Origin: Actinomycetes bacterium
GTDB lineage: Bacteria > Actinomycetota > Acidimicrobiia > Acidimicrobiales > SZUA-35
Direction: 5' to 3'
NCBI GenBank assembly: GCA_024276425.1
Contig: JAJRXF010000041.1
Coordinates: 1 to 44,482 of the forward strand
DNA length: 44,482 nucleotides
This document shows, piece after piece, positions 158 through 13,729 of this stretch (the first letter of the stretch is position 1; every line of letters starts with the position of its first letter). The notes beneath the pieces are model-generated. The model saw nothing but the letters and a program-made list of their open reading frames with translations, ran no database searches and had not been told where the DNA came from. Position numbers and translations under genes: made by a program.

Positions 158-580
158 CTAGCCCTCTCCGGTGGCCACAACGGCGGTAGCAACGATCTCG
201 ACCATTGCCGCTTCCTCAAACAACTCGGTCACACCAAGCATGGCCATCGCTGGAAAGTGTTTCCCTACGTGCTTTTGATGTGCGGCCCCGACCCCTCGAA
301 GGTCGGCCCGATAGGCGGCCATATCGGTGGTGTAGACCACCAGAGAAACAATGTCTTTTGGCTCTCCCCCGGCTGCGGTTAGTGCGGCCACCACGTTCTG
401 TAATGCAAGGTCGTACTGCTCGGCCAGAGTGTCCCCGATGACCATGCCGGTGGCATCACAGGCAATCTGGCCGGCCAGATAGATGGTCTTGCCATCGGCT
501 GGCACCACGGCATGCGCAAAACCTTTGGCCGGAGCCATGGTGTGAGGATTAACCATGCGGTGTTCGGAGGTGCCTTCCAT
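158..580 (-). CDS. RidA/YjgF-family protein lacking the canonical arginine
   Basis: A 140-residue protein with the Rid fold signature: IYLAGQIA (33-40), the helix AEQYDLALQNVVAALTAAGG (53-72), and VEIVATAVV (127-135). Classical RidA hydrolyses enamine/imine intermediates using an arginine in the motif FPARS (Arg105 of E. coli RidA). Here the matching motif is FPAMAML (109-115), so the arginine is replaced by methionine. The start overlaps the stop of the upstream crotonase gene by one base (TAATG), which implies translational coupling. In 2-aminobenzoyl-CoA pathways the product of ring reduction is an enamine, so a Rid protein here makes sense, but the missing arginine argues against standard RidA chemistry. 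The family is clear; the activity is not. Confidence 0.85.
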   Translation of the reverse strand: MEGTSEHRMVNPHTMAPAKGFAHAVVPADGKTIYLAGQIACDATGMVIGDTLAEQYDLALQNVVAALTAAGGEPKDIVSLVVYTTDMAAYRADLRGVGAAHQKHVGKHFPAMAMLGVTELFEEAAMVEIVATAVVATGEG

Positions 581-1440
581 TACTGGCCCGTCCAGTTCGG
601 TGCCTCACCGGCATTGAAGGAGCGATGAAACTCGGAGTGGTCGTCGGTTTTCATCAATAACGCCTGAGTCATGGCCTCGTACTCGATGGCCCCGGCCAAG
701 TCCATGTCTGCTTCCTTGGTAATCAACAACTTGGTCATGGCGTAACCGAGCGAGGGGCCATCGGCAATTCGCCGGGCCAGCGCATTGGCCTGGGTCATCA
801 GGTCCTCGGGCTCAACTACCCGGTTGGCCAAGCCAATGTTGACCGCCTCCTCGGCCGTCACCGCGTCGCCGAACATCAGAATTTCCGTGGCCCTGCCTTG
901 ACCAACAAGGCGGGGAAGGAGATAGGCCGACCCCATGTCGCCCCCGGATAGGCCAACCTGAGTGAACAAGAAACGGAACTTGGCCCGGGGGACACACAGC
1001 CGGAAATCCGAAGCCAACGCAATGACCGCCCCGGCTCCCGCGACCGTTCCGTTGATGGCGGCGATGATGGGGGTTTGGCACTCCCGCATGTTCTGGATGA
1101 CCGCGCCGGTCATTCGGGTGAACTCCAGCAGTTCCTTGGCGTTGAACTTCAGCAGTTCGCCAATGATCTCATTCACATCCCCACCCGAACAAAAGCCTCG
1201 ACCTTCGCCGGTAATGATGACGGCGTCGATGTCGTTGCGCAGCGGGATCTGTCGAAAAGCTTCCCGCAAATCGGCATAGACATCAAAGGTCAATGCGTTG
1301 AGCTTTTCGGGCCGGTTCAGGGTGATGGTGGCTACCCGGTCATCGATCTCGAAATCGAAATGCTCCCAATCATCAACAAAGATGGGGGTAGCCCGAAAGG
1401 GCTTATTCTGCCGATAGCTGTCGGCACTGCGATCACTCAC
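580..1440 (-). CDS. Enoyl-CoA hydratase/isomerase (crotonase) family protein
   Basis: A 286-residue crotonase-fold protein that should act on an acyl-CoA in the cytoplasm. The fold is shown by VATITLNRPEKLNAL (36-50), the oxyanion-hole segments GFCSGGD (82-88) and GTVAGAG (131-137), and GLSGGDMGSAYLLPRLVG (163-180). The two catalytic glutamates of classical hydratase appear to be absent: position 139 is Val and the second site falls in a Phe/Thr stretch. An aspartate at 168 aligns with the catalytic Asp of dienoyl-CoA isomerases. It may thus act as an isomerase or as a ring-opening hydrolase on a cyclic substrate rather than as a simple hydratase. It starts with GTG at 1440, overlapping the upstream SDR stop by 4 bp (GTGA), and its stop overlaps the RidA-like start. 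Confidence 0.85.
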   Translation of the reverse strand: MSDRSADSYRQNKPFRATPIFVDDWEHFDFEIDDRVATITLNRPEKLNALTFDVYADLREAFRQIPLRNDIDAVIITGEGRGFCSGGDVNEIIGELLKFNAKELLEFTRMTGAVIQNMRECQTPIIAAINGTVAGAGAVIALASDFRLCVPRAKFRFLFTQVGLSGGDMGSAYLLPRLVGQGRATEILMFGDAVTAEEAVNIGLANRVVEPEDLMTQANALARRIADGPSLGYAMTKLLITKEADMDLAGAIEYEAMTQALLMKTDDHSEFHRSFNAGEAPNWTGQ

Positions 1441-2189
1441 GTTGGTCCTCCGTCGAGCAGGACTTCCTGCCCGTTGTCGTTGCTGGATACCAGATCAACA
1501 ATGGCGCTCGCCACTTCGTCAATCTCAAGAATTCGTCCATGCGGTGTAGCCGTTGCCAGCTTTGCCTCGGCCTCAGCCAGGCTGCAGCTACTTCGGTTGG
1601 CGATGTTGGCGATGCTGGCCACGGTCATCTCGGTGCGAACAAAAGTGGGGCAGACCGAATTGGCGGTCACTCCCGTGCCTGTCACCTCCGCGGCCAAGAC
1701 TCGCATAAACCCAAGAGCCGCGTGTTTGGACGCGGCATAGGCGGCGATGTATGGCGCACCCTCAAGGCTGGCCGTTGAGGCCACGGTGATGATGCGGCCA
1801 AAGGACCGCTTCAACATTGCTGGTAGCACGGCCTGGGAGCACAGGAAGGGGCCGGTGGCATTCACCGCCAGGTTCTGATTCCATTCTTCGACCGTCGTTC
1901 GCCCGATCGAATTTGAGGTCGATATCCCGGCATTGTTGATCAGGACATCGATGGTTCCAAGCTCGGCAATGGCAGTGAAGACCCGCTCAACATCGTCCGG
2001 ATCGCTCACGTCACAGACCATGACACTAAGACCCATGACACCAAGACCCTCGGTCATGACTTTTGGGTACGAGCGAGCCAAGGCGATAACTCGATAGTCC
2101 TGCGCGACCAGCCGCTTGGCTACTGCGGCTCCAATGCCTCGGGTACCACCGGTCACAACGGCCAGTCTGGGGGTGGTCTGCCCACTCAT
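1437..2189 (-). CDS. SDR-family NAD(P)-dependent oxidoreductase
   Basis: A classical 250-residue short-chain dehydrogenase/reductase. The Rossmann glycine motif is TGGTRGIG (14-21), NNAG follows near residue 85, and the catalytic triad is visible as the Ser in VASTAS, then YAASKHA (Tyr and Lys). Such enzymes interconvert a hydroxyl and a keto group; within this acyl-CoA operon the best guess is a 3-hydroxyacyl-CoA dehydrogenase or a reductase acting on a cyclic CoA thioester. The start overlaps the OYE stop by 4 bp (ATGA), and the stop overlaps the crotonase start, so the three genes are translated as a coupled unit. The family call is sure; the substrate is inferred from context. Confidence 0.9.
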   Translation of the reverse strand: MSGQTTPRLAVVTGGTRGIGAAVAKRLVAQDYRVIALARSYPKVMTEGLGVMGLSVMVCDVSDPDDVERVFTAIAELGTIDVLINNAGISTSNSIGRTTVEEWNQNLAVNATGPFLCSQAVLPAMLKRSFGRIITVASTASLEGAPYIAAYAASKHAALGFMRVLAAEVTGTGVTANSVCPTFVRTEMTVASIANIANRSSCSLAEAEAKLATATPHGRILEIDEVASAIVDLVSSNDNGQEVLLDGGPT

Positions 2190-3622
2190 AGGGCGACCTC
2201 ATCCAACATGACCTCGACCGTGTTACTGACCGGACCCCGGACCCCGGCGGCGTCATAGGGCACAACCCGATAACGCAGCGATTGATCTCGAAGGGCGCTG
2301 TCATCCAGGTGTCTGGTTCGAGTACACGACGTGAGAATCTCATAAGCCCCACCATCGACCGAACGCAAGACGTCAAAACCGGTGGCACGGCCCCCGGTTG
2401 GTTGTGGCCACCGCAACCGAACCTCACCCGGTCCTATCCTGGCGACCAACGGCTCGGGGTTCTCCCAGATCATTGGGTTGGGTTTGCTTTCGCCGTTGGC
2501 TTCGTCTGGCCGGGGGGCCTGAATCTCACCCTTTGGCCACAAGTAACAGGTGACCGTTTTGAAGTTCTCATCCAGAGACTTGCAAACATTGCAGTAGATG
2601 CATTGGATAATCTCCGCTTCACGCCCAGCCTTGGCCTTGGCCGGAAGGTAGGGGTCGGCGAGGAGCCCTCTGGCCATGCCAACAAGGTCGCAGGACTCTT
2701 CGACCAGTACCTGCTCTGCCAGTTGCACCGTACCGATCTTGCCCGCACCCAGTACCGGGGTTGTGTGCCCGGCCTGTCGTAGTGCCTGGCGAATGAGGCG
2801 AACGAGCCAGATGTTGGTGGCATCGGGGTAACTGTCCCCGGGCATGCAACGGTCACCGGAATAGCCGGTGTATGGGTACAGGGGTTGCCCCTCACGTTGA
2901 ACCGCATCCTCGAACTTGCCCCCGACCGACAACGAAATGTAGGCCGCTCCAAGGTCGGCAAAACGGATGGCGAACTGGGAGGCATCATCGGCTGAGTAAC
3001 CCCGCCGGATCGACTCATCGGCCAAGAACCGCACACCGACCGGGAAGTCGCCAACTCGTTGCTTGACTCGCTGGAAGACCATGGAAGGAAGCCGCAACCG
3101 GTTCTCCAGAGTTCGGCCATAGTGGTCACGGCGTCTGTTCATTCGAGACAGCATTGATGACATGGTGTACGCGTGGGCCATGTGGAGTTCAACACCATCA
3201 AATCCGGCCTCGAAGGCTCGAACCGCCGCATCGGCGAACAAGTCGGGTAGAGCTTCCAACTCCTCGATGGATAGATCCTCAACCTTTTGGCGCCACCCCG
3301 AGCGGGCGACCTTCAAAAAGTGGATGATTTGCAAGAAGACCTTTCCGTCTCCGGCACTATGGCAAGCGTCAGTGAGACGGGCCATTCCGGGGATGAACTC
3401 CTCATCAGAGATTCTCAGCAACGGACCAGACTTGCCCCCATGAATGGAGGCAGCCTCAACAACAATGAGCCCCGATCCGCCCTCAGCGAATCGTCGATAG
3501 CGCTCGATAATGCCCTCGTTGACAAATCCGTCCTCACCGGAGAGACGGGTGACCATCGCCGGAACGGCGAAACGGTTGGGAAGCTCGATCGAGCCCAGGC
3601 TCAGCGGTTCAAAGAGGACCAT
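2186..3622 (-). CDS. Old-yellow-enzyme/2,4-dienoyl-CoA-reductase-type flavoenzyme with C-terminal Fn3-like domain
   Basis: A 478-residue protein. Residues 1-365 form an FMN-binding TIM barrel of the NADH:flavin oxidoreductase family: LPNRFAVPAM (14-23), HMAHAYTM (147-154), NRRRDHYGRTLENRLR (162-177) and GMARGLLADP (315-324). A cysteine set at 341, 344, 347 and 359 (C-x2-C-x2-C-x11-C) matches the 4Fe-4S motif of dienoyl-CoA reductase and trimethylamine dehydrogenase. The FAD/NAD domain that normally follows in those enzymes is missing; instead residues 388-475 look like a fibronectin type III beta-sandwich (RLRWPQP, TGFDVLRS, YRVVPYDAAG). It leads the operon OYE-SDR-crotonase-RidA. It probably reduces an unsaturated or aromatic acyl-CoA; the electron donor is unknown. 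The ATG at 3622 has almost no leader if the proposed promoter is right. Confidence 0.85.
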   Translation of the reverse strand: MVLFEPLSLGSIELPNRFAVPAMVTRLSGEDGFVNEGIIERYRRFAEGGSGLIVVEAASIHGGKSGPLLRISDEEFIPGMARLTDACHSAGDGKVFLQIIHFLKVARSGWRQKVEDLSIEELEALPDLFADAAVRAFEAGFDGVELHMAHAYTMSSMLSRMNRRRDHYGRTLENRLRLPSMVFQRVKQRVGDFPVGVRFLADESIRRGYSADDASQFAIRFADLGAAYISLSVGGKFEDAVQREGQPLYPYTGYSGDRCMPGDSYPDATNIWLVRLIRQALRQAGHTTPVLGAGKIGTVQLAEQVLVEESCDLVGMARGLLADPYLPAKAKAGREAEIIQCIYCNVCKSLDENFKTVTCYLWPKGEIQAPRPDEANGESKPNPMIWENPEPLVARIGPGEVRLRWPQPTGGRATGFDVLRSVDGGAYEILTSCTRTRHLDDSALRDQSLRYRVVPYDAAGVRGPVSNTVEVMLDEVAL

Positions 3623-3628
3623 ACCCCT

Positions 3629-3658
3629 AATCTATACTACGATTTTTGCTATCGTCAG
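3629..3658 (-). promoter_or_regulatory. Possible leaderless promoter with operator-like dyad for the OYE operon
   Basis: Read on the minus strand, CTGACG (3658-3653) and TAGATT (3634-3629) are spaced by 18 bp and resemble -35 and -10 boxes. Only six bases separate the -10 box from the ATG at 3622, which would place the transcript start at the start codon, as in leaderless actinobacterial mRNAs. The dyad ACGAT-N7-ATCGT (3639-3655) lies between and touches the -35 box, a good place for a repressor. The boxes are weak, so this is a proposal. Confidence 0.4.
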
Positions 3659-3714
3659 AAACCGCTCATACACACCCTGACGAAACCCCAACCCCATACC
3701 ATCGAGGCTCTCTC

Positions 3715-4857
3715 GTGATAACCAGCCAAGAATCCAACCTTCAAGCTCTGGTGGCTACCAACATCGACAACCTCCGGGCCTTGGCCAACTCCGCACCCGA
3801 GGGACGGCTCAATCGACCCCTCCTGGCCGCGCTCGGTAAGGAACTGCTTCCTCACCTCTTTCCATCTTCGGTTGGCGGGGTACACGACAACGCGGTTTCC
3901 TCCACTGAACTATGCATTCTGCGTGAGGAACTCGGTCGGCTCATGCCCGCAGCAGAAACAACCCTCGCTCTGCAAGGTCTTGGTGCCTATCCCATCCTGT
4001 TTGAGGGAAGCGACCAGGTGGTACAGGAATGGCTGCCAAAGGTGGCCAACGGCACCGCCGCCGCAGCCTTCGCTCTTACCGAAACCGAAGCCGGTTCCGA
4101 TGCCGCCGCCATCACCATGTCCGCAACTCGAGACGGCGACGGCTGGCGACTGAGTGGCAAGAAGGTCTTCATCTCCAACGCTCCCGATGCCGACATCTAC
4201 ACCATCTTTGCCCGCACCGACCCCGACGCCGGGTCACGAGGCGTAACCGCGTTCGCCGTTCCCGGCGGCCTGGAGGGCATGAGCGGGCAAGCCTATGACA
4301 TGGTCGCCCCCCACGTAATCGGCGAGTTGATTCTCGACAATGTATTTGTTCCTAACAGCCACGTCCTTGGTGAGGTCAACCGCGGCTTCCGAGTGGCCAT
4401 GGGCACCCTCGACCTTTTCCGACCAAGTGTCGGAGCCTATGCCGTCGGCATGGCCCAGGCCGCGCTGGACGCCACCGTGAGCTATACCGATCACCGCAGA
4501 GCCTTTGGGGGTCGATTGAGGGATCTCCAGGCAGTTGAACACAAGATCGCCGATATGGCCCTGGGGATTGAGGCGGCCAGGCTGCTGGTACGCAGCGCGG
4601 CTGCTTGCTACGACACCGGCGAAGACGGCTTGACCAAGAAGTCAGCCATGGCCAAGCTGTTCGCCACCGAGACCGCCCAACGTGTGGTTGATGATGCCGT
4701 CCAACTTCACGGCGCTATTGCGCTACGCAAGGGACATGTTCTTGAGGAGTTGTACCGGGAAGTTCGAGCACCCCGGATCTATGAGGGAACCTCCGAAGTT
4801 CAGCGATCCATCATCTCACGGGCGGTGTACGCACAACTTCAGGATTTGGTGACCTGA
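3715..4857 (+). CDS. Acyl-CoA dehydrogenase family protein
   Basis: A FAD-dependent acyl-CoA dehydrogenase of about 380 residues, the usual length. FAD-binding motifs ALTETEAGSDAA and KVFISNAPDADIY are present, and the C-terminal IYEGTSEVQRSIISR contains the glutamate that acts as catalytic base in the short/medium-chain family. I chose GTG at 3715 because GAGG lies 7 bases upstream; an in-frame ATG at 3646 would add 23 unlikely residues and run into the divergent promoter. It would introduce a 2,3-double bond into an acyl-CoA and pass electrons to ETF. It is divergent from the OYE operon and shares its 92-bp control region, so the two are probably co-regulated. The stop overlaps the convergent PaaX-type gene by 19 bp. 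Confidence 0.92.
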   Translation: MITSQESNLQALVATNIDNLRALANSAPEGRLNRPLLAALGKELLPHLFPSSVGGVHDNAVSSTELCILREELGRLMPAAETTLALQGLGAYPILFEGSDQVVQEWLPKVANGTAAAAFALTETEAGSDAAAITMSATRDGDGWRLSGKKVFISNAPDADIYTIFARTDPDAGSRGVTAFAVPGGLEGMSGQAYDMVAPHVIGELILDNVFVPNSHVLGEVNRGFRVAMGTLDLFRPSVGAYAVGMAQAALDATVSYTDHRRAFGGRLRDLQAVEHKIADMALGIEAARLLVRSAAACYDTGEDGLTKKSAMAKLFATETAQRVVDDAVQLHGAIALRKGHVLEELYREVRAPRIYEGTSEVQRSIISRAVYAQLQDLVT

Positions 4858-5648
4858 CGGAAGTAACGCAGGGCTTGGGGCCGCAGCACCCGCTCAAAGC
4901 TCAAGAACAACTGCCGAGCGGCCTTACCCGGCCAGTCTGAAGGCAGGGCGTCAACCGGTAGCCCGGGATCGAGATATGGCAACTCTCGCCAATGAGCGTT
5001 CTGGCCAATATAGGCAGCGAAGGCTTCCGAATCGCTGCGCTCATTCTTGGCCCAATCTTTCGCTACCGGAGCGAACGTGCCAATGTAGTCGTCGAAACGA
5101 TGGCGAATTCCCTCCAGATCCCACGAGTTGGCGACCAACTCCTCCAGATCGTCAAACCCAACATAACGACCCTGCCAGATGGTCACATAGCGGCCAAGAT
5201 CATGCCGCTGGAGCATTCGTTCAGTCTCAGCCAGCACCGTGACCGGAGCAAGCCAAGACGTGGCGGGACCCTGACCAAACCCCAACCTCTCTAACCGGGA
5301 TCGGATCAGGTATCGCTTGCTTCGCTCGGATTCCGGAACCGAGAACAAAACCACGATCCAATCGGCGCCTCCAACCGCGGGTTCGGTTCCAACATCACCA
5401 AAGATCCGGTGGCTGCCGAACTCAAGTATTTCTGTTGCCGAATCACTGAGTGCATAGCCAGCGACACCGTTACGCTTTTCGGACACCAACAGGCCCTTGC
5501 GTTTCATTCGAGAAGCGGCAGAGCGAACAGCTTGAGCATCAACCTCAACATTGGCCAGCAGTTCAATCAGGTCACCAATGGCAAGCCAGCCACCAACTTC
5601 ATGACCAAATGAGCCATAGACATCAAGGATACGATCCTTTGGTTGCAC
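4839..5648 (-). CDS. PaaX-family transcriptional regulator
   Basis: A 269-residue regulator related to PaaX, the phenylacetyl-CoA-responsive repressor. The N-terminal winged helix (RILDVYGSFG, AIGDLIELLANV, AVRSAASRMKRKGLL) is followed by a central domain (ADWIVVLFSVPESERSKRYL) and the C-terminal PaaX domain (WDLEGIRHRFDDYI, HWRELPYLDPGLP, SDWPGKAARQLF). I placed the start at GTG 5648, with AAGGAG seven bases upstream; the open frame extends 35 codons further but would overlap the divergent hydrolase. PaaX proteins bind acyl-CoA effectors, which fits a repressor for the surrounding CoA-thioester genes. A perfect palindrome lies just upstream of it. The family call is strong; the effector is inferred. 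Confidence 0.88.
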   Translation of the reverse strand: MQPKDRILDVYGSFGHEVGGWLAIGDLIELLANVEVDAQAVRSAASRMKRKGLLVSEKRNGVAGYALSDSATEILEFGSHRIFGDVGTEPAVGGADWIVVLFSVPESERSKRYLIRSRLERLGFGQGPATSWLAPVTVLAETERMLQRHDLGRYVTIWQGRYVGFDDLEELVANSWDLEGIRHRFDDYIGTFAPVAKDWAKNERSDSEAFAAYIGQNAHWRELPYLDPGLPVDALPSDWPGKAARQLFLSFERVLRPQALRYFRQVTKS

Positions 5649-5667
5649 GTACTGCTCCTTCCCCTTA

Positions 5668-5684
5668 ACCGAGGTTAGCTCGGT
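5668..5684. promoter_or_regulatory. Perfect inverted repeat ACCGAG-N5-CTCGGT, putative operator
   Basis: This 17-bp dyad has two exact 6-bp arms and sits in the 68-bp spacer between the divergent PaaX-type regulator and the hydrolase. Position and symmetry suggest the regulator binds here and controls both genes. It differs from the dyad at 3639-3655, so a second regulator may act there. Confidence 0.5.
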
Positions 5685-5716
5685 GAGAGTTTGAACATCA
5701 CCAAAAAAGGTGCACA

Positions 5717-6460
5717 GTGAGAGTCGTGGCAGCGAGAGCAGATTCAGACCCATTCACTGTTGAACCCTACGGCGACCACCCAAGCCAATACGTTGAGCGG
5801 TGGGCGGCGGGGGTGGAGGCACCGATGGCTGTCTTGATCCACGGCGGCTATTGGCGAAACCCCTACGGTTGCGACCTCATGCATCCCATGGCTGCCCGAC
5901 TGGTCTCGCTTGGATGGACGGTGCTTAACGTCGAATATCGCCGGATAGGGGAGGTTGAGGATCCCTGGCCCGCAATGGCCGCTGACCTGGTTAGCGCCGG
6001 CAGGCTGACCGCACCAGGCTCTGTTCTGATTGGTCACTCAGCCGGAGGCCACCTGGCCCTCTGGCTGAGTGGCCAATCATCGGGGCGCAATCACCAACCC
6101 TACCAAGGCGTCGTGGCCTTGGCCCCCCTGGCTGACCTAGACACAGCCGATCGGCTTGAGCTCTCCAACCATGCGACCTCTGAACTCTTTGGTTTAGATG
6201 CCGAACAACGATCGAAACGCATCCTGGCCGCATCACCCCACCGACTTGTCCCGCTTGGGGTTCACCAGCTTGTGGTCCACGGAGATGCTGATGAAAACGT
6301 TCCCCAGAGCATCTCTGACGCCTATGTCCGAGCAGCTCGAGAAGCCGGAGACGACGTCGTCTACTTCGACCCGGCCGGGGTCGATCACTTTCAGATCATC
6401 GATCCGACCACCACAATCTGGAGCGAAATTGAAGCGGTACTAGAGACCTGGAGTTCCTGA
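5717..6460 (+). CDS. Alpha/beta hydrolase, kynurenine-formamidase-like
   Basis: A 247-residue alpha/beta hydrolase. HGGYWR (42-47) forms the oxyanion hole and matches the HGG(F/Y)W motif of bacterial and animal kynurenine formamidase-like esterases. The nucleophile elbow is GHSAGG (106-111, Ser108). An acid in HGDADENVP and the histidine in VDHFQII complete the triad. If it is a formylkynurenine hydrolase it would supply kynurenine and hence anthranilate, which fits the neighbouring aminobenzoate-type CoA ligase. Other amide or ester substrates are equally possible. The GTG at 5717 follows AAGG; another GTG nine bases on is an alternative. It diverges from the PaaX-type gene across a palindrome. 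Confidence 0.85.
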   Translation: MRVVAARADSDPFTVEPYGDHPSQYVERWAAGVEAPMAVLIHGGYWRNPYGCDLMHPMAARLVSLGWTVLNVEYRRIGEVEDPWPAMAADLVSAGRLTAPGSVLIGHSAGGHLALWLSGQSSGRNHQPYQGVVALAPLADLDTADRLELSNHATSELFGLDAEQRSKRILAASPHRLVPLGVHQLVVHGDADENVPQSISDAYVRAAREAGDDVVYFDPAGVDHFQIIDPTTTIWSEIEAVLETWSS

Positions 6461-6494: not shown

Positions 6495-8108
6495 CTACTT
6501 ACCTAGGGCGTGGCGTTGGAGCTTGCCGGTCTGGGTTTTGGGCAAGGGCCCAGACTCGAACACGAGAACTCTGGGGTACTTGTACGGGGCGATCGTGGCC
6601 TTGACAAAATCCTTCAATTCCTCGGCAAGTTCGTCACTCGCCATCGCCGGATCACGAAGATGCACAAAGGCCTTCACCACCGAGCCACGATCTGGGTCAG
6701 GCACCCCAATCACCCCGGCCTCTTTGACTTCGGAGTGCAACAGGAGTGCCTCTTCCACCTCGGGAGCCGCAATGTTGTAGCCGGAACTGATAATCATGTC
6801 ATCGGTGCGGGCCTGATAGTGGAAGTAGCCATCCTCGTCTCGCAAGTAGGCGTCGCCAGTTAGGTTCCAGCCGTTTTGTACATATGTCTTCTGACGGTCG
6901 TCGTCAAGATAGCGGCACCCGATCGGTCCCCGAACGGCCAGCTTGCCGATCGTCCCATCAGCAACAGGCTCGCCATCATCGGAGACCACCATGGCCTCAT
7001 AGCCAGGCAGGGGCTTGCCGGTGGCCCCGGGGCGGATGTCGTCATCGGCGGCTGAAATGAAAATGTGCAGCAGCTCGGTGGCCCCAATGCCATCGATGAG
7101 GCGTACCCCGGTAGCGGCCTGGAATGCTTCGAACACCGCCACGGGAAGGGTCTCCCCCGCGCTAACAGCGCGACGGATCGAAGACAGCTGGGACCCCTCG
7201 GCCGCTTCCAACATCACCCGATAGGCGGTGGGTGCCGTGAACACCACCGTAGCCTTCTTGTCGGCGATGAGTTTGGCCAGGGGTCCGGGTCCAGGCGCCT
7301 CACTAAAGATGGTGGATGCACCAACACGCATCGGAAACACCACAAGCCCGCCGAGACCGAAGGTGAAAGCAATGGGGGGAGAGCCAACAAAGACATCGGT
7401 GGCTTCGGCTTTCAGCACCGGCTGGAACGCATCGGCTATGACTAACAGATCGCGATGAAAGTGAATGGTGGCCTTCGGATCACCCGTGGTACCGGAGGTG
7501 AAACCCAAGAGCACGGGGTCCGACGCTGCGGTGTCGACATTGTCGAAACGGTCGGACTTCGTTTCAGCCGTGACGATCAGATCATCAAAATCGGTGGGCT
7601 CAGTTCCCCAACAAGCGATTGGCGTATCAGTTACCGCAGCCAAAGGTGCTTCCATGCCAGACTGACAAAACGCCAACGCAGGTGAACACTTTTGGTAGAT
7701 CTTGGTCAGCTCCGGTTCGCGCAACATCGGCATGGTGGCCACCGCCACACCGCCCACCTTGAGGACGGCGAACCAGGCGGCGATCATCCATGGAATGTTC
7801 GGGCCCCGCAGCAATACTCGATTGCCAGGGACTATCCCATAGTCCTCCACCATGACATTGGCCAACCGGTTAGCCCAGACTTGGAGTTCGGCGTAGGTCC
7901 ACATTGTCTCACCAATGCCCATGCACGGCTGGTCACCCCAGCCACGCTCAATGGCTAAGTCCAATAACTCCGTGGCGGCGTTGAGGCGGTCGGGATAGTC
8001 ATATGGAGGGTCAAGGGTGATTCGAGGCCACAACTCGGGTGCCGGTAACCCATCGATCACGAAGGTGTCCTGATGACTGGTTGGGATCTGTGGCATCGTC
8101 TCCGACAT
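6495..8108 (-). CDS. Benzoate/2-aminobenzoate-CoA ligase family AMP-binding protein
   Basis: A 537-residue acyl-adenylate-forming enzyme that would activate an aromatic acid to its CoA thioester with ATP. The phosphate loop is GFTSGTTGDPK (202-212). SPPIAFTFGLGGLVVFPMRV is characteristic of the benzoate/2-aminobenzoate-CoA ligase branch. Later come GYNIAAPEVEEAL and the C-terminal PKTQTGKLQR with the catalytic lysine at 529. It stands alone on the minus strand, convergent to the hydrolase and 84 bp downstream of the desaturase-type gene. Together with the OYE, crotonase, SDR, RidA and dehydrogenase it supports an aromatic acyl-CoA pathway. I am confident about the family; the exact acid (benzoate, anthranilate, salicylate or another) cannot be told from sequence. 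Confidence 0.88.
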   Translation of the reverse strand: MSETMPQIPTSHQDTFVIDGLPAPELWPRITLDPPYDYPDRLNAATELLDLAIERGWGDQPCMGIGETMWTYAELQVWANRLANVMVEDYGIVPGNRVLLRGPNIPWMIAAWFAVLKVGGVAVATMPMLREPELTKIYQKCSPALAFCQSGMEAPLAAVTDTPIACWGTEPTDFDDLIVTAETKSDRFDNVDTAASDPVLLGFTSGTTGDPKATIHFHRDLLVIADAFQPVLKAEATDVFVGSPPIAFTFGLGGLVVFPMRVGASTIFSEAPGPGPLAKLIADKKATVVFTAPTAYRVMLEAAEGSQLSSIRRAVSAGETLPVAVFEAFQAATGVRLIDGIGATELLHIFISAADDDIRPGATGKPLPGYEAMVVSDDGEPVADGTIGKLAVRGPIGCRYLDDDRQKTYVQNGWNLTGDAYLRDEDGYFHYQARTDDMIISSGYNIAAPEVEEALLLHSEVKEAGVIGVPDPDRGSVVKAFVHLRDPAMASDELAEELKDFVKATIAPYKYPRVLVFESGPLPKTQTGKLQRHALGK

Positions 8109-8192: not shown

Positions 8193-9215
8193 TCAGGACG
8201 GGTACCGACTCCACTGACCAGTCTCGAAATCGTGCAACTTGCAGTTCTTGGTTGAGTTCAAATAGTCGGAGAGGCTGAGTCGCCGCTCAACCACATCATC
8301 GGGCCGGGCCTCCTTAATGGCCCGGGCAGCTTCAGGTAAGCGGTAGCAAGGGATAGCCATATCCACATGGTGAGGCAAGTGAACCATGATCCAGTGAAAG
8401 AAAACCTCAAAACCCGGTGGTCCCCACAAAACGGTTGTCCCCTCCACTTGACCCCGATAGCGATTCCACTCTCGTCGGCCCCACCAGCGAACGTCCGGTG
8501 CGATGTGGTGAACATAGACCGCCCACCCAATGGTTTGGCAAAATAACAGAAAGGGTATGACAAGCAGTTTGACGAAAAGCCAAAGGCCCCCAGCGGGTCC
8601 GGCAGCAAGGAGTGACAGAACCAAAAAGACAAGAGCAAACGCGCCAACCAGTGCCCGATCTCGGTGCATGGCTTTTGCCCATCGTTTCGGTGGGGCAAAC
8701 CTCACCATCTTGTTCCACCAGACCTGACGGCTGTAGTAGGTGCCAGATCCAAGCATGCTCCACTCGAGGCGATGACGAAGACGGGCCAGCTTGGAAAAAT
8801 CGGCGTATTGCTCGAGGGTTACCGGGTGCCAGACAAAGTCCATGCCTTGGCGAAGGGTGTGACCATGGTGCACCCGGTTGTGGCCAAAGATCCACTGTTC
8901 AGTTGCATGCAAGGATGGCAACATGGTGACTCGCGCCACCACCGCATTCAACTTGGCGGAGTTGAACAGGGCGGAGTGAGCCGCGTCGTGGCCCAAGATG
9001 AACAGGGCCGACGTGGCCAGACCCGCAAGAATCCACAACGGGATAAGAAAGTAGACCTGATTGGTTGACGCCAAGCCAATCAAGGCCAGGCCATAGAAGG
9101 TCAAGTCCCGAGCAATCAAAAACAACCCTCGCCCGGTCGAGCGCGTGTAACAAGAGTCGGGAATAACATCCAGCACCGGCCTTAGCCCGGTCGGTTTCTC
9201 CATCACAGAGGTCAT
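8193..9215 (-). CDS. Membrane fatty-acid-desaturase-type di-iron enzyme
   Basis: A 340-residue membrane protein with the three histidine boxes of the FA desaturase/hydroxylase superfamily: HDAAH (76-80), HNRVHH (112-117) and HLPHH (279-283). Hydrophobic spans lie around 38-75 and 187-235. Members use a di-iron centre and O2 to desaturate or hydroxylate acyl chains or other hydrophobic substrates. It is upstream of the CoA ligase on the same strand, with 84 bp between. It could modify membrane lipids and be unrelated to the catabolic genes, or it could be an oxygenase of this locus; the sequence does not decide. No fused ferredoxin or cytochrome b5 domain is present. Confidence 0.85.
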   Translation of the reverse strand: MTSVMEKPTGLRPVLDVIPDSCYTRSTGRGLFLIARDLTFYGLALIGLASTNQVYFLIPLWILAGLATSALFILGHDAAHSALFNSAKLNAVVARVTMLPSLHATEQWIFGHNRVHHGHTLRQGMDFVWHPVTLEQYADFSKLARLRHRLEWSMLGSGTYYSRQVWWNKMVRFAPPKRWAKAMHRDRALVGAFALVFLVLSLLAAGPAGGLWLFVKLLVIPFLLFCQTIGWAVYVHHIAPDVRWWGRREWNRYRGQVEGTTVLWGPPGFEVFFHWIMVHLPHHVDMAIPCYRLPEAARAIKEARPDDVVERRLSLSDYLNSTKNCKLHDFETGQWSRYPS

Positions 9216-9316: not shown

Positions 9317-10051
9317 CTAGTGGCTCGCCGCATCTCCGAGGTAGGAGGCCCGCAATTCCGGGTTTTCCAGGAGTGCGTCCGCAGTGTCGTCCAAGACCAC
9401 CTTGCCGGTCTGTAGGACCCAACCGCGGTCAGCGATCGAGAGCGCCATGTTGGCATTCTGTTCCACCATGAAAATGGCAACACCCTCCGAATGGATCTGC
9501 TGAATCAACTCGAAGTTCGTCTCAACCAGGGCCGGAGCCAAGCCCATCGAGGGCTCATCCATGAGCAAGACCCGGGGGCTTGACATCAGGGCACGCCCCA
9601 TAGCAACCATCTGCTGCTCGCCCCCAGACAAGGTCCCGGCTCGCTGCGAGAGCCGCTCCTTTACTCGGGGAAACATGTCATAGATGCGCTCAAGGTCCTC
9701 GGCAACCTTGGCTCGATCGGTGCGCAGGTAAGCCCCGAGTTCAAGATTCTCCTTAACCGACAAACGCTTAAACAACCGCCGGTTCTCCGGCACCATCGTG
9801 ATGCCCCGCTCGACCCGATAGCTGATGGGTTTCTCGTTGACCACCTCGCCATCGAGCACCACTTCACCAGAACTGGGCTTCACCATGCCAAGCAGTGTCT
9901 TGAGCGTGGTGGACTTCCCGCTGGCATTGCCCCCAAGCAGGCACACCAACTCACCAGGATAAATGGCCAGGTTGACATCCTTGAGGATGTGGACGGCCCC
10001 GTAGTGAGTGTTGATCCCTCGGAACTCCAACAGTGGGGTTTGCTCGCTCAC
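9317..10051 (-). CDS. livF: Branched-chain-type ABC transporter ATPase LivF
   Basis: One of the two cytoplasmic ATPases of a hydrophobic-amino-acid-type importer. Walker A is GGNASGKST (40-48), with Asn-Ala in place of the commoner Gly-Ala seen in most LivF proteins. The Q-loop region is VPENRRLF, the signature LSGGEQQ (141-147), and Walker B VLLMDEP (161-167). The length of 244 residues is normal for LivF, and ENRRLF is typical of the LivF branch. The start overlaps the livG stop by 4 bp. It is the last gene of the five-gene set and is followed by a terminator hairpin. Substrate may be a branched-chain amino acid, urea, an amide or an aromatic acid. Confidence 0.92.
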   Translation of the reverse strand: MSEQTPLLEFRGINTHYGAVHILKDVNLAIYPGELVCLLGGNASGKSTTLKTLLGMVKPSSGEVVLDGEVVNEKPISYRVERGITMVPENRRLFKRLSVKENLELGAYLRTDRAKVAEDLERIYDMFPRVKERLSQRAGTLSGGEQQMVAMGRALMSSPRVLLMDEPSMGLAPALVETNFELIQQIHSEGVAIFMVEQNANMALSIADRGWVLQTGKVVLDDTADALLENPELRASYLGDAASH

Positions 10052-10830
10052 TTGTCTCCTGCCGATCGGCCAAGGTAGGCCTCAATCACATCCGGGTGGG
10101 TGGACACATGGTCATAGGAACCCTGGGCGATGGTTACTCCGTGGTCAAGTACAACAACACGGTCAGAAACATCCCGGACCAGACGCATATCGTGTTCGAT
10201 GATGACGATGGTGAAACCCCACTCACTTCTCAACTTGCCGATGAGTTGGGTTAATTCGGCAGTTTCCATGGGGTTCATTCCCGCCACCGGCTCATCCAAC
10301 ATTAAAAGGCGGGGTTGGGTGGCCATTGCTCGGGCGATCTCCAGGCGGCGACGATTGGCGTAAGAGAGCACGAAGGCCGGCTGGTGTAACCGATAGCCGA
10401 TGAGTCGAGGACCGAAGAAGCCAAGTACCTCCTCAGCATTCTTGCGTATAAGAGCCTCTTCTTCCTTGTAGGCCTTGGTGCGGAATAACGGGCCCCAGAT
10501 TTTCTGACTAGTTCGACAGTGCTGGGCCACCATGACGTTCTCAAGAATGGTCATCTGAGGGAACAAGCGCACATTCTGGAAAGTTCGACCAATGCCACGG
10601 GCCGTGATTTCGTTCGGATCCAGACCAATGATTGATTCGCCCTCAAAGTTGATTTGGCCATGATCGGGACTGGCTAACCCGGTAATCAGATTGAAGAACG
10701 TCGTCTTGCCAGCACCATTGGGACCAATAACTGAGACGATCTCTCCCTCCTCGACATGGAAGTTCAGATCATCGATGGCTGTGAGTCCGCCAAAACTGAT
10801 GGTGACGTTCTTGATGTCCAAGAGGGTCAT
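10048..10830 (-). CDS. livG: Branched-chain-type ABC transporter ATPase LivG
   Basis: The second ATPase of the importer, 260 residues. Walker A is GPNGAGKTT (36-44). The segment GIGRTFQNVRLFPQMTILENVMVAQH is diagnostic of LivG. The signature region reads LSYANRRRLEIARAMATQP, a LivG-style variant without the canonical LSGGQ, and Walker B is LLMLDEPVAGMNP. The C-terminus (GVTIAQGSYDHVSTHPDVIEAYLG) matches the LivG tail domain. The gene overlaps both livM and livF by 4 bp, so all are translationally coupled. Confidence 0.93.
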   Translation of the reverse strand: MTLLDIKNVTISFGGLTAIDDLNFHVEEGEIVSVIGPNGAGKTTFFNLITGLASPDHGQINFEGESIIGLDPNEITARGIGRTFQNVRLFPQMTILENVMVAQHCRTSQKIWGPLFRTKAYKEEEALIRKNAEEVLGFFGPRLIGYRLHQPAFVLSYANRRRLEIARAMATQPRLLMLDEPVAGMNPMETAELTQLIGKLRSEWGFTIVIIEHDMRLVRDVSDRVVVLDHGVTIAQGSYDHVSTHPDVIEAYLGRSAGDK

Positions 10831-12635
10831 GCTGTTGCCACTGCCTCGTCATCGTCGCTACCGGGTTTTTCGCCCTTAAGCCAGGCGTCCTGCAAGGCCT
10901 CCTCCAGATGAAGTTCTCGGGTTCTGGCCGCGTTGGGAATGAGACCTTCGGGTCTCTTCAACATCATGAAGACCAGCAAGGCCCCGTAGATGAGGAGCTT
11001 GAACTCGGAAAACTCGGCCAAGAGTCCGGGCTGCTTTGGCCCGCCAAGAATTCCGATAAGAACAACCGCTCCGACGATGACGCCGGGGATGTTGCCCATT
11101 CCGCCCACAATGACCACCACCAAGATGATAATAGAGACCAGCAGGAGGAAACTGTTGGGGAAGGTTGATCCAACCTTGGCCGCGAAAATGGCACCAGAAA
11201 ACGAGGCCAACACCGCGCCGGTTACAAAGGCAAAAAGTTTGGTGGTGACGGTGTTGATTCCCATGGCTTCCGCAACTGGTTCGTCCTCACGAATGGCCAT
11301 CCAGGCCCGGCCAATGCGCGACGTCTCCAACTGATGAGAGATGTAGATGGCGAGGGCGACAAATACCGCCACCAACCAAAACACTGCCCGTGGGTCGGTT
11401 CCGTTAACCTCAGCAATCCCGATGTCTACACCAGGAATGTTGCGAATTCCCTGGGATCCACCGAGGGTCGGTGACAACCAGTCAGACAGGAAAAGGAGCC
11501 GAATTATCTCGCCAAAGCCCAACGTCACGATCGCCAAGTAGTCGCCTCGCATCCGGATCACCGGCGTACCAATTAAGAGGCCCACAAATCCGGTGAGCAC
11601 AACCACGATCGGAAGCGCAACTAACCACGGCAGAACAGGCAACCATGAGAAGGCCGTATTGGCGAATGTGTCATTGAGACGCCATGGAGCCTCCGGAGTG
11701 GTCAGGACCGCCATGGCGTAGGCGCCGACTGCGAAGAAGGCCACATAGCCAATGTCCAAGATGCCGGCCCGCCCAACCACAATGTTGAGGCCAAGGGCTA
11801 ACAACACAAACAGGCCAATATTGGCCAATAGTTCGTTGACAATTTTGCCTAAGAAGATGGGGAGAATAATGGCGGTAGCGATCGTGGCGAACATCATGTA
11901 GGTGTTGTACTTTTTTTGTTCACCCTCATCCATCGCGTCGTATTGGTTCTTGAGTTCGGTGCCTTTGCCTTTGAATCCCAGCGCTAACGCCGTGGCAATC
12001 GCCACCACAATCAGGGCGGGTACAAAGGCGAGGCCTCCCCCCGAGGCATAGAGCAACCGGGCGAGTGACTTGAGGCCGATCTCGCCCAGAAAATCATCGA
12101 CGACCGCTTCCAAGATGGCAAGGGTGAGAACTGATACGCCAACAATGGTCAGCAAACGTTTGGCCTCGGGCTTCAAGACATGAATGCCGCCACCGAACGC
12201 CCCGAGCACCGCCCCCACAACCAAGCTAATCACGATGCCCAGTCCCACACCCTGACGAAAAGAGAACAGATCTAGCAACTGGTCTCCCCAGCGGGGCATC
12301 CATTCCGACAGGTCAAACCGATTGAGAACGACAAGGAAGAGGCCGACCACCAAACCTCCGGCCAAACCAGCAATTCCCCCTGCCAACAGATCCCGACTAC
12401 CTTTTTCTGGTTCCTCCATGCCTTCCAACACCACCTCATTGGCGGCGACAAAACCAGCAACGAAGGGCACGGTTAAAACAAAGAGGTAGCCAAGACTCAG
12501 AATCGGATCGATCAACATGCGTTCATTGAGACCAACCCCGATCCCAACCAGACCCATAAAAACCACGGTGCTGCCAGCAATAAGACCAATGTAGGTTGAC
12601 CGCTTGGCGTCGATATCGGTTGCGGAACGACTCAT
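10827..12635 (-). CDS. livM: ABC transporter permease LivM with long N-terminal membrane extension
   Basis: A permease of 602 residues, well over the usual 320-420 for LivM. The C-terminal half, about residues 265-580, is the conserved core: LALGLNIVVGRAGILDIGYVAFF, RGDYLAIVTLGFGEI, AWMAIREDEPVAEAMGIN and GGMGNIPGVIVGA. The N-terminal 260 residues contain about six further hydrophobic spans (VFMGLVGIGVGL, LAGGIAGLAGGLVVGLFLVVL, GLGIVISLVVGAVLGAFGGG, FVPALIVVAIATALALG), with a short polar linker before the core. The extension has no function I recognise. Some LivM proteins carry smaller extensions of this sort. The gene overlaps livH and livG by 4 bp each. Confidence 0.9.
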   Translation of the reverse strand: MSRSATDIDAKRSTYIGLIAGSTVVFMGLVGIGVGLNERMLIDPILSLGYLFVLTVPFVAGFVAANEVVLEGMEEPEKGSRDLLAGGIAGLAGGLVVGLFLVVLNRFDLSEWMPRWGDQLLDLFSFRQGVGLGIVISLVVGAVLGAFGGGIHVLKPEAKRLLTIVGVSVLTLAILEAVVDDFLGEIGLKSLARLLYASGGGLAFVPALIVVAIATALALGFKGKGTELKNQYDAMDEGEQKKYNTYMMFATIATAIILPIFLGKIVNELLANIGLFVLLALGLNIVVGRAGILDIGYVAFFAVGAYAMAVLTTPEAPWRLNDTFANTAFSWLPVLPWLVALPIVVVLTGFVGLLIGTPVIRMRGDYLAIVTLGFGEIIRLLFLSDWLSPTLGGSQGIRNIPGVDIGIAEVNGTDPRAVFWLVAVFVALAIYISHQLETSRIGRAWMAIREDEPVAEAMGINTVTTKLFAFVTGAVLASFSGAIFAAKVGSTFPNSFLLLVSIIILVVVIVGGMGNIPGVIVGAVVLIGILGGPKQPGLLAEFSEFKLLIYGALLVFMMLKRPEGLIPNAARTRELHLEEALQDAWLKGEKPGSDDDEAVATA

Positions 12636-13729
12636 GCTCGGTCCTCCGCCGCTAGTCGCTCACCGAATAGCCCCGTTGGTTTGAATAGCAAGATCAGCAC
12701 CAGAACGGCGAAGGCGACCGCATCTTTGAGTTGAGACACCGCCGGAATCCCAAGCGGCTTGAGGATCACGAGCGGGGCCACGCTTTCGACCAAACCCAAC
12801 AGCAGACCGCCGGCCATCGACCCACCAAGGTTTCCAACGCCACCAATGACAGCGGCAGTAAAGGCTTTGATGCCGGGCAAGAACCCAGTGAGGGCAGAGA
12901 CACCCCGGAAGAGCAGGCCCCAGAGAACTCCGGCTACTCCGGCCATTGCTCCACCAACGGCGAAGGTGGTGACAATCGTTCGATTGACGTCAATACCCAT
13001 CAGGGCGGCAATCTCCTTGTCTTCGGCCACGGCTCGCATGGCCTTACCAGTTTTCGTTCGCTCAACGAAAACCCAGAGTCCGGCCATGGAGACCGCCGCG
13101 ATGACAAGCACCAGGATCTTTGTGCCCTCAATCCTCAAGAACGTGTATTCGGCGCTCATCCACGGGGGCGGGGCCGGCAAGGTTTTGGACGCTGGCCCAA
13201 ACAGGCCAAGAACGGCATTCTGCATGAAAAAGGAAACACCAATTGAGGTAATTAAGGGAATCAACCGAGGCGACTCCCGCAATGGGCGATAGGCCACCCG
13301 CTCAATCAGGATGGTGGCCAGAGTCGAGACAATGACGGCGATTACCAAGACAATGAGCAGGGCAAGGACAAACTTTGCCTCACCTTCCCACATGCCATTC
13401 TCGAACAAGATGGTGGAGGTAATCCAGCCAGACATGGCACCAGCCATGAAGACTTCGCCGTGGGCAAAGTTGATGAACCCGAGAACGCCATAGACCATGG
13501 AGTAGCCCAATGCGATCAGGCCATACATGGCTCCCTGGGAGATGCCGGTGACGAAGAGCCCACGAATTGCCCCACCGGTTAAGCCTTCGCCACCGGCCTG
13601 CTCAAGGACGAATGCCAGCAAACCAACGCCAATAAAGGCCATGGCTCCGATACGAATGGCGGTAAGAAAAAGGTCGACCCAGTTATTGGTCTTCCAAACC
13701 TTCTGCGGTTTCCGCTGGGTTGCGGTCAT
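12632..13729 (-). CDS. livH: ABC transporter permease LivH
   Basis: The partner permease, 365 residues. The LivH signature GLIALGYSMVYGVLGFINFAHGEVFM lies near residues 71-96, and ERTKTGKAMRAVAEDKEIAALMGIDV forms the cytoplasmic loop that meets the ATPase. The N-terminus has an extra hydrophobic span (AIRIGAMAFIGVGLLAFVLEQ) before the core, so it is somewhat longer than the usual 290-310. It pairs with LivM to make the channel. It starts 158 bp after the binding-protein gene, a gap that contains a strong hairpin, and overlaps livM by 4 bp. Confidence 0.92.
   Translation of the reverse strand: MTATQRKPQKVWKTNNWVDLFLTAIRIGAMAFIGVGLLAFVLEQAGGEGLTGGAIRGLFVTGISQGAMYGLIALGYSMVYGVLGFINFAHGEVFMAGAMSGWITSTILFENGMWEGEAKFVLALLIVLVIAVIVSTLATILIERVAYRPLRESPRLIPLITSIGVSFFMQNAVLGLFGPASKTLPAPPPWMSAEYTFLRIEGTKILVLVIAAVSMAGLWVFVERTKTGKAMRAVAEDKEIAALMGIDVNRTIVTTFAVGGAMAGVAGVLWGLLFRGVSALTGFLPGIKAFTAAVIGGVGNLGGSMAGGLLLGLVESVAPLVILKPLGIPAVSQLKDAVAFAVLVLILLFKPTGLFGERLAAEDRA

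Follow-up and report, generated by a model that had tools for sequence, protein, structure and literature searches.

What does an OYE-family reductase do with a fibronectin III (FN3) domain at its C-terminus, and in which pathway does it work? The window analyzed here, a 44,482-nt contig (JAJRXF010000041.1) from a bacterium of the Acidimicrobiales, contains such a gene, referred to below as OYE-FN3 (P0001, 478 aa), at 2186..3622. The original prediction gave these coordinates correctly and left out the strand, which is minus: an open frame of 478 codons matching PF00724 runs from an ATG at 3622 to a stop codon at 2188-2186. Read in frame, the opposite (plus) strand of the same stretch is interrupted by stops. 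A chance or artefactual frame is ruled out by the 48–83% identity that is kept in 17 other members of the family. A secreted enzyme is unsupported: on inspection of the sequence by eye, the N-terminus begins directly with the barrel.

Domain architecture

Residues 1-340 (2603..3622, minus strand) are an OYE/FMN TIM-barrel domain (PF00724, E 3.6e-41), with the PF00724 match itself spanning residues 3-229 at 142 bits against a cut-off of 27. The best PDB match of the full-length model (mean pLDDT 80.7) is 2-naphthoyl-CoA reductase (6qkg; Z 44.4, rmsd 2.4, 354 aligned, 25% identity). Thus, both profile and structure matches place the FMN-binding TIM barrel of the PF00724 family in OYE-FN3. The model falls below pLDDT 50 at residues 234-260 and 344-352, the latter being the loop after the second Cys of the motif described below. 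The ene-reductase triad H147-x2-H150-x-Y152 (3167..3184, minus strand) is invariant in 18/18 members and aligns with hmahgy of the Thermus OYE (3hf3); we take the catalytic roles of H147, H150, and Y152 to be those of YqjM.

The barrel is followed by C341-x2-C344-N-V-C347-x11-C359 (2546..2602, minus strand), an Fe-S-like motif of which three Cys and the Asn are kept in 32/32 members. All four Cys are present in the window's own OYE-FN3. The position of C344 is more variable, with Cys in 22 of the 32 members, Trp in four, Gly in four, and Ala in two. Because this second Cys is missing in 10/32 members, an Fe-S cluster is unproven, and its putative site uncertain. After the motif come a short linker and ~95 residues folding as FN3; the C-terminal FAD- or ADP-binding domain of the DCR/NCR/TMADH class is absent.

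The nearest NCBIfam models of OYE-FN3 are of the BaiCD and FadH/OYE types, all far under cut-off. For example, BaiCD (NF041087) matches residues 3-363 at E 4.2e-54 with a score of 183.7 against a cut-off of 825. The model for ACMR (NF006101) gives E 9.2e-34 and 116.6 bits against a cut-off of 1078, and its best stretch covers the OYE part only (profile 536-730). The layout of ACMR, an N-terminal FAD monooxygenase followed by a C-terminal OYE, is not that of OYE-FN3. A stricter search of the PDB with the OYE-FN3 profile, at 1e-60, gave no match.

Is the C-terminal domain truly FN3? It comprises residues 385-478 (2186..2470 with the stop codon, minus strand) and was assigned by a model, Foldseek, and a family profile. 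The original prediction had named two grounds for abandoning the assignment, the lack of a beta-sandwich and the lack of homologues with the same fusion, and neither was found. Modeled alone, the domain is a seven-strand beta-sandwich (mean pLDDT 93.7), and in the full-length model it stays confident, with block means of 85–92 over residues 391-470. An FN3 domain without homologues is ruled out, as the fusion is common to 30/32 members; the profile that found them was built from 18 domains, and 12 of the 30 were not used in building it. The sequences of the two members without FN3 (L039, L091) stop at contig ends, and 16 of the 17 related loci match through residue 469 or beyond, L039 being the exception. 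Since structural alignment of the whole model covers mainly the OYE part, the FN3 domain was searched separately; Foldseek returned 21 matches at E<=1e-3 (TMq 0.67–0.79), mostly entries with FN3 domains. The family profile, searched against the PDB, matches titin FN3 (2.7e-22), chitinase A1 FN3 (1k85, 7.4e-11), and other FN3-bearing chains. PF00041 matches the C-terminal domains of 14/18 members (best 2.3e-6); the window copy is not among them, and this region of the window's protein has zero Pfam matches even at E<=10. The original description, an OYE reductase that has gained FN3 and is without a FAD/NAD domain, holds for the window protein by PF00724 and by the FN3 model and profile, and this layout is conserved in its homologues. 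We infer that the FN3 domain has no catalytic role and is a structural or docking module, one that may bind some protein.

Distribution

OYE-FN3 is a rare but widespread family. It occurs in 17 loci of genome contigs, and in a sister genome at 83% identity. The bacterial records of the 17 loci include Actinomycetota, Acidimicrobiales, Bacteroidota/Bacteroidetes, Ignavibacteriae, Kapaibacterium, and Tectomicrobia, and also Planctomycetota, Acidobacteria, Alphaproteobacteria, Rhodospirillales, Asaia, Anaerolineales/Chloroflexi, and Myxococcota. Counting the members already known, its frequency is 16/289 in an Alphaproteobacteria sample, 2/296 in its own class, and 3/395 in a Bacteroidota-centered sample. 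Eighteen members align over their length (alignment A1), with the C-terminal domains aligned apart (A3). In searches of open-licence PMC papers, none was found that names the fusion. The combination itself, its pathway link, and the split-ACMR genomes described below appear to be new, while the component parts are of known kinds.

Gene neighborhood

What do the surrounding genes say about the pathway? In the window, OYE-FN3 is followed on the minus strand by an SDR oxidoreductase (1437..2189; PF00106, 5e-52), whose start overlaps the OYE-FN3 stop by 4 bases, and then by an enoyl-CoA hydratase (ECH) family protein (580..1440; NF006107/PRK08258, 396.4 bits, cut-off 330) and a RidA-family enamine/imine deaminase-like protein (158..580; PF01042, 1.6e-20). 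Upstream lie genes for a divergent acyl-CoA dehydrogenase (ACAD; 3646..4857, plus strand; PF00441, 1.6e-47), a PaaX-family repressor (4839..5753, minus strand; TIGR02277 at 9.6e-40, under cut-off, with PF08223, PF20803, and PF07848 over cut-off), an alpha/beta hydrolase (5717..6460, plus strand; PF20434, 8.2e-14), and a benzoate-CoA-ligase family protein (6495..8108, minus strand; TIGR02262, 1.5e-96, 324 bits, under the cut-off of 375). Judging from sequence, the ligase is likely a 2-aminobenzoate-CoA ligase, and the hydrolase is possibly a kynurenine formamidase, an assignment for which we take its HGGYW motif as the mark. PaaX relatives are said to help control quinaldine degradation in Arthrobacter (PMC3534580).

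Similar genes recur across the family. At least one homologue of ACAD, ECH, ligase, RidA, or ACMR (at least 38% identity) is found in 25/32 loci, the window included, and at least two in 20/32. Relatives of the CoA ligase lie directly downstream of OYE-FN3 in 15/32 loci; an acyl-CoA dehydrogenase gene is present in 16/32 and lies directly upstream on the same strand in 10/32. The fullest clusters (e.g., L079, L082, L083, and L090) run in the order SDR, in some a MarR-size gene, ECH, ACAD, OYE-FN3, and ligase, with many loci having a subset of these. ACMR is within the same locus in 5/32 and directly adjoins OYE-FN3 in L024 (L024:1399-3729; NF006101, 1115.8 bits, over the cut-off of 1078). A tryptophan 2,3-dioxygenase-type gene adjoins OYE-FN3 in two loci, after it in L030 and before it in L038. 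L030 also has a kynureninase-type gene nearby; these matches are all under the curated cut-offs. None of the counted pathway genes is near OYE-FN3 in 7/32 loci, including the Bacteroidota-type loci, so for the Bacteroidota-type loci the pathway link rests on the genome rather than on neighboring genes. Where a genome lacks OYE-FN3, its ACMR locus can have the order ACMR-SDR-(MarR-size gene)-ECH-ACAD-ligase (L106, L108, L109), and the annotation of Thalassospira marina has the same ACMR-SDR-ECH-ACAD-ligase order plus MarR, kynU, kynA, thioesterase, and RidA.

Co-occurrence with ACMR

The genomes themselves link OYE-FN3 with ACMR. In the sample of 289 Alphaproteobacteria, ACMR occurs in 53, OYE-FN3 in 16, and both in 15; that is, ACMR is present in 15/16 carriers of OYE-FN3 versus 38/273 non-carriers (Fisher 2e-11, ancestry not corrected). 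In the window's own order, 2/2 carriers have ACMR versus 2/59 others (4/61 genomes in total; p 0.003). The window's own genome encodes ACMR (G000:C62:11444-13741; 1054 bits, just under the cut-off of 1078) and a kynureninase over cut-off (G000:C3), and the aerobic 2-aminobenzoyl-CoA gene set (ligase, ACMR, SDR, ECH, ACAD, RidA) is present in it. ECH (NF006107) is over cut-off in 15/20 carriers versus 0/14 controls, and kynureninase is found at E<=1e-20 in 18/20 versus 3/14 (over cut-off in 9/20 versus 2/14). ECH was not found at 1e-60 in G064, G069, or G263, nor kynureninase at 1e-20 in G065 or G263. Such absences are soft, as the 17-locus set consists of MAGs and completeness is not given for locus-derived genomes. 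It is very probable that OYE-FN3 belongs to the aerobic 2-aminobenzoyl-CoA pathway.

Carriers differ in how much of ACMR they have. At 1e-100, 12 of 19 carriers have full-length ACMR, three (G063, G064, G076) have the monooxygenase half only, and four have none. At 1e-15, one of these four, G069, has a monooxygenase fragment on a cut contig, and the other three give only OYE-type matches. The carriers G065, G067, G077, and G263 have no monooxygenase part at E<=1e-15. At E<=1e-10, PF00724 matches nothing but OYE-FN3 in G063, G064, G069, and G076. In the one genome scanned, the neighbor of the stand-alone monooxygenase gene encodes a D-Ala-D-Ala-ligase-like protein, not an OYE. Two loci of the Bacteroidota sample (L178 and L179, both new) have no monooxygenase within 19 kb.

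Has the OYE half of ACMR decayed where OYE-FN3 is present? Loss of its active site is ruled out: H-x2-H-x-Y is kept in 14/14 full-length rows of alignment A2, including 12/12 carrier rows. The ACMR of L052 differs elsewhere in the OYE barrel, not in the triad. In a tree built from 33 ACMRs (22 carrier sequences, with 11 non-carriers picked from more), the carrier label changes 5 times versus 9.3 in shuffles, and 0/500 shuffles are as low. A single origin of the carriers' ACMR is rejected, as carriers are clustered on the tree but do not form one clade.

Proposed function

Which step could OYE-FN3 catalyze? The reading that we favor, tentatively and at somewhat less than an even chance, is that it is an FMN ene-reductase for a CoA thioester of the 2-aminobenzoyl-CoA pathway, one that replaces the reductase half of ACMR, or backs it up or follows it; its substrate, its electron donor, and the role of FN3 are parts that we infer. 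The pathway would lead from tryptophan through kynurenine and anthranilate to anthraniloyl-CoA. Anthraniloyl-CoA would be hydroxylated at C5 by the ACMR monooxygenase half or, in Bacteroidota-type genomes, by a stand-alone monooxygenase. OYE-FN3 would then pass hydride from reduced FMN to the ring so hydroxylated, or to the keto tautomer of that ring. Tyr152 would be the proton donor and His147 and His150 would bind the carbonyl oxygen, roles presumed from YqjM. NAD(P)H, acting in the same active site, would be the simplest reductant of the FMN, with no need for a new partner. The product would be a non-aromatic 2-amino-5-oxocyclohexene-carboxyl-CoA, to be processed by the SDR, RidA, hydratase, and acyl-CoA dehydrogenase.

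The two groups of carriers bear differently on this reading. The split-ACMR genomes suggest that the reductase step is supplied there by OYE-FN3; it would stand in for the missing OYE half in Bacteroidota-type genomes, and elsewhere it would back up or follow ACMR. For carriers whose ACMR is full-length, the intact triad argues against simple replacement, since a second reductase is redundant there unless it does another step. In those carriers, OYE-FN3 may either salvage the hydroxylated aromatic compound or work on a C=C at a later step. Most ACMR genomes are without OYE-FN3 (38/53 in the Alphaproteobacteria sample), and so is an annotated complete type-A operon. A bolder version, which we consider distinctly unlikely, is that OYE-FN3, as a new kind of aryl-CoA reductase with a single flavin, dearomatizes 5-hydroxyanthraniloyl-CoA in trans to the stand-alone monooxygenase of some Bacteroidota-type, split-ACMR genomes, with FN3 docking to the monooxygenase and three-Cys members holding an open-site Fe-S cluster. 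If so, FN3 docking would hand over a reactive dearomatized intermediate, and the reductase of ACMR would have been replaced by a non-orthologous, FN3-tailed OYE.

Could OYE-FN3 instead act after ring cleavage, working like FadH/DCR in beta-oxidation on a conjugated CoA ester (2,4-dienoyl- or enoyl-) rather than on the ring? This is rather unlikely. It would fit the BaiCD- and FadH/OYE-type models that come nearest in NCBIfam (all far under cut-off), the appearance of 1ps9 (DCR) within the ten best solved matches in three comparisons, the 10/32 loci with an acyl-CoA dehydrogenase directly upstream, and the coexistence with an ACMR whose triad is intact (12/12). However, type-A operons presumably handle the same intermediates without OYE-FN3, and where ACMR has lost its OYE half, the sole PF00724 match is OYE-FN3. 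Quite improbable is a dehydrogenase or amine-oxidizing enzyme of the trimethylamine/histamine dehydrogenase type, passing electrons via an Fe-S center to ETF. The C-x2-C-N-V-C-x11-C spacing is much like that of the TMADH type as generally understood, both TMADH and histamine dehydrogenase are high-ranking structural matches (Z ~42), and acyl-CoA dehydrogenase, commonly an ETF user, is present in 16/32 loci; but 10/32 members have W, G, or A in place of the second Cys, the ADP-binding domain is missing, and the invariant triad (18/18) is that of an ene-reductase.

The original prediction suggested that the FN3 domain may recruit an electron-transfer partner. Such a partner would be a dedicated ferredoxin, flavodoxin, or reductase, an idea that we regard as very improbable. 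FN3 domains commonly bind proteins, and the Fe-S-like motif lies just ahead of this one. Against it, no carrier-like family was recognized among the neighbors (ORFs of at least 90 aa) recurring in at least 3 of the 32 loci, several unlabelled families of which are not annotated. A motif scan for ferredoxin-like small frames gave 22 pattern matches in 15 of 35 loci, all judged by eye to be shadow frames, and an OYE can take NAD(P)H directly. One of the unlabelled recurrent families has 438–479 aa and occurs in four loci.

The preferred reading, that of an ene-reductase in the 2-aminobenzoyl-CoA pathway, concerns a route whose steps after ACMR are poorly known, and OYE-FN3 is a conserved candidate reductase for it. 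A paper on pathway curation names tryptophan degradation by anthraniloyl-CoA monooxygenase/reductase as one of the pathways “omitted due to a lack of knowledge” (PMC9007349). The findings also give a named operon type, and the split-ACMR genomes are a natural test case for what OYE-FN3 reduces.

Comparison with known enzymes

ACMR (NF006101, bifunctional salicylyl-CoA 5-hydroxylase/oxidoreductase) shares its pathway and genomes with OYE-FN3, and it too has an OYE with H/H/Y, as its C-terminal half. The two are only distantly similar in this part (25–30%, four ACMR rows); OYE-FN3 is without the monooxygenase half and has the Fe-S-like motif and FN3. In three Bacteroidota-type genomes, the OYE half of ACMR is absent and OYE-FN3 is present. 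The likeness to 2-naphthoyl-CoA reductase (NCR; 6qkg/6qkr), an OYE-type aryl-CoA reductase, lies in an OYE barrel followed by a Cys motif. NCR is described as having, besides a [4Fe-4S] cluster, an FAD domain plus an additional alpha/beta domain, with a low-potential donor assumed (PMC6502838). The C-terminal domains described there are absent from OYE-FN3. NCR shows that aryl-CoA rings can be reduced by OYE barrels; the analogy is limited to the barrel, given the FAD, the Fe-S cluster, and the low-potential donor assumed for NCR. FadH (2,4-dienoyl-CoA reductase) and BaiCD-type Fe-S OYEs presumably share CoA-ester chemistry with OYE-FN3, which unlike them lacks the FAD/NAD domain and has FN3 instead.

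The best PDB sequence matches are class III single-domain OYEs (YqjM, Thermus scotoductus OYE; 3hf3, 5nux). They share H-x2-H-x-Y, are without FN3, and match OYE-FN3 only to about profile position 333 in the alignments shown; the segment from about residue 93 to about residue 117 is shorter in OYE-FN3, by some 22 residues. In YqjM-type single-domain OYEs, the FMN receives hydride from NAD(P)H directly, so loss of the FAD domain alone demands no new donor. Hence, the earlier argument that the electron input must differ does not follow.

Did FN3 take the place of the FAD/NAD domain, as had also been proposed? Such a swap is not supported by an NADH:flavin oxidoreductase of Limnohabitans pTEGF4 (WP_281891465.1, P0002). 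Of the relatives found that have no FN3, this one is the closest (its FN3 profile E of 0.14 is not significant), and it is likewise without the FAD/NAD region. It is 36.5% identical to OYE-FN3 over residues 2-370, shares the GGKFEDA and YPYTG motifs, and stops soon after its Cys motif (CRYSNYC-x11-C); it has a 57-residue insert after about residue 108. Because this relative lacks both regions, FN3 may have joined an OYE already without the FAD/NAD region, or it may have been lost in the Limnohabitans relative. When P0001 was compared with plasmids, all 1564 records were below 60% identity, with 36.5% for the top-ranked one; the Limnohabitans protein is the sole plasmid record at E<=1e-30. A tryptophanase gene lies two listed genes from it.

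Genomic context of the OYE-FN3 cluster

The 2-aminobenzoyl-CoA monooxygenase/reductase (ACMR) of the window's own genome lies on a different contig from the OYE-FN3 cluster (C62; locus L092, 11411 onwards). There it adjoins an acyl-CoA dehydrogenase gene and another PaaX-like gene (32% to the one in the window), an arrangement that suggests that the ACMR locus and the window cluster form a co-regulated split regulon. Next to the window cluster, at 9317-13729, lies a set of genes that by sequence resembles a branched-chain amino-acid transporter, with two ATPase-like genes of the ABC kind and a permease-like frame of 602 aa; it is a possible uptake system for a pathway substrate. A fatty acid desaturase family gene (8193-9215; PF00487) sits between the benzoate-CoA-ligase family gene and these transporter-like genes.

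Related loci in other genomes

In genome G409, from the same class as the window, PaaX-like, ligase-like and OYE-FN3 genes are consecutive on one strand (L175:5625-9629), with proteins matching those of the window at 42%, 48% and 66%, respectively. This row of three genes is a compact form of the window cluster. A Limnohabitans plasmid encodes an OYE of the same wider family that lacks the FN3 domain (L168:8923-10410), close to tryptophanase and 3-oxoadipyl-CoA thiolase genes, and this locus may mark a related tryptophan/indole route. The ACMR monooxygenase half also occurs alone, as a protein of 376-391 aa, in Bacteroidota/Ignavibacteriae-type genomes (L053:1498-2631, minus strand; L054:1501-2631 and L055:1501-2676, plus strand). 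It adjoins a D-Ala-D-Ala-ligase-like gene in L054, and a frame equal in size to that gene (355-356 aa) in L053 and L055.
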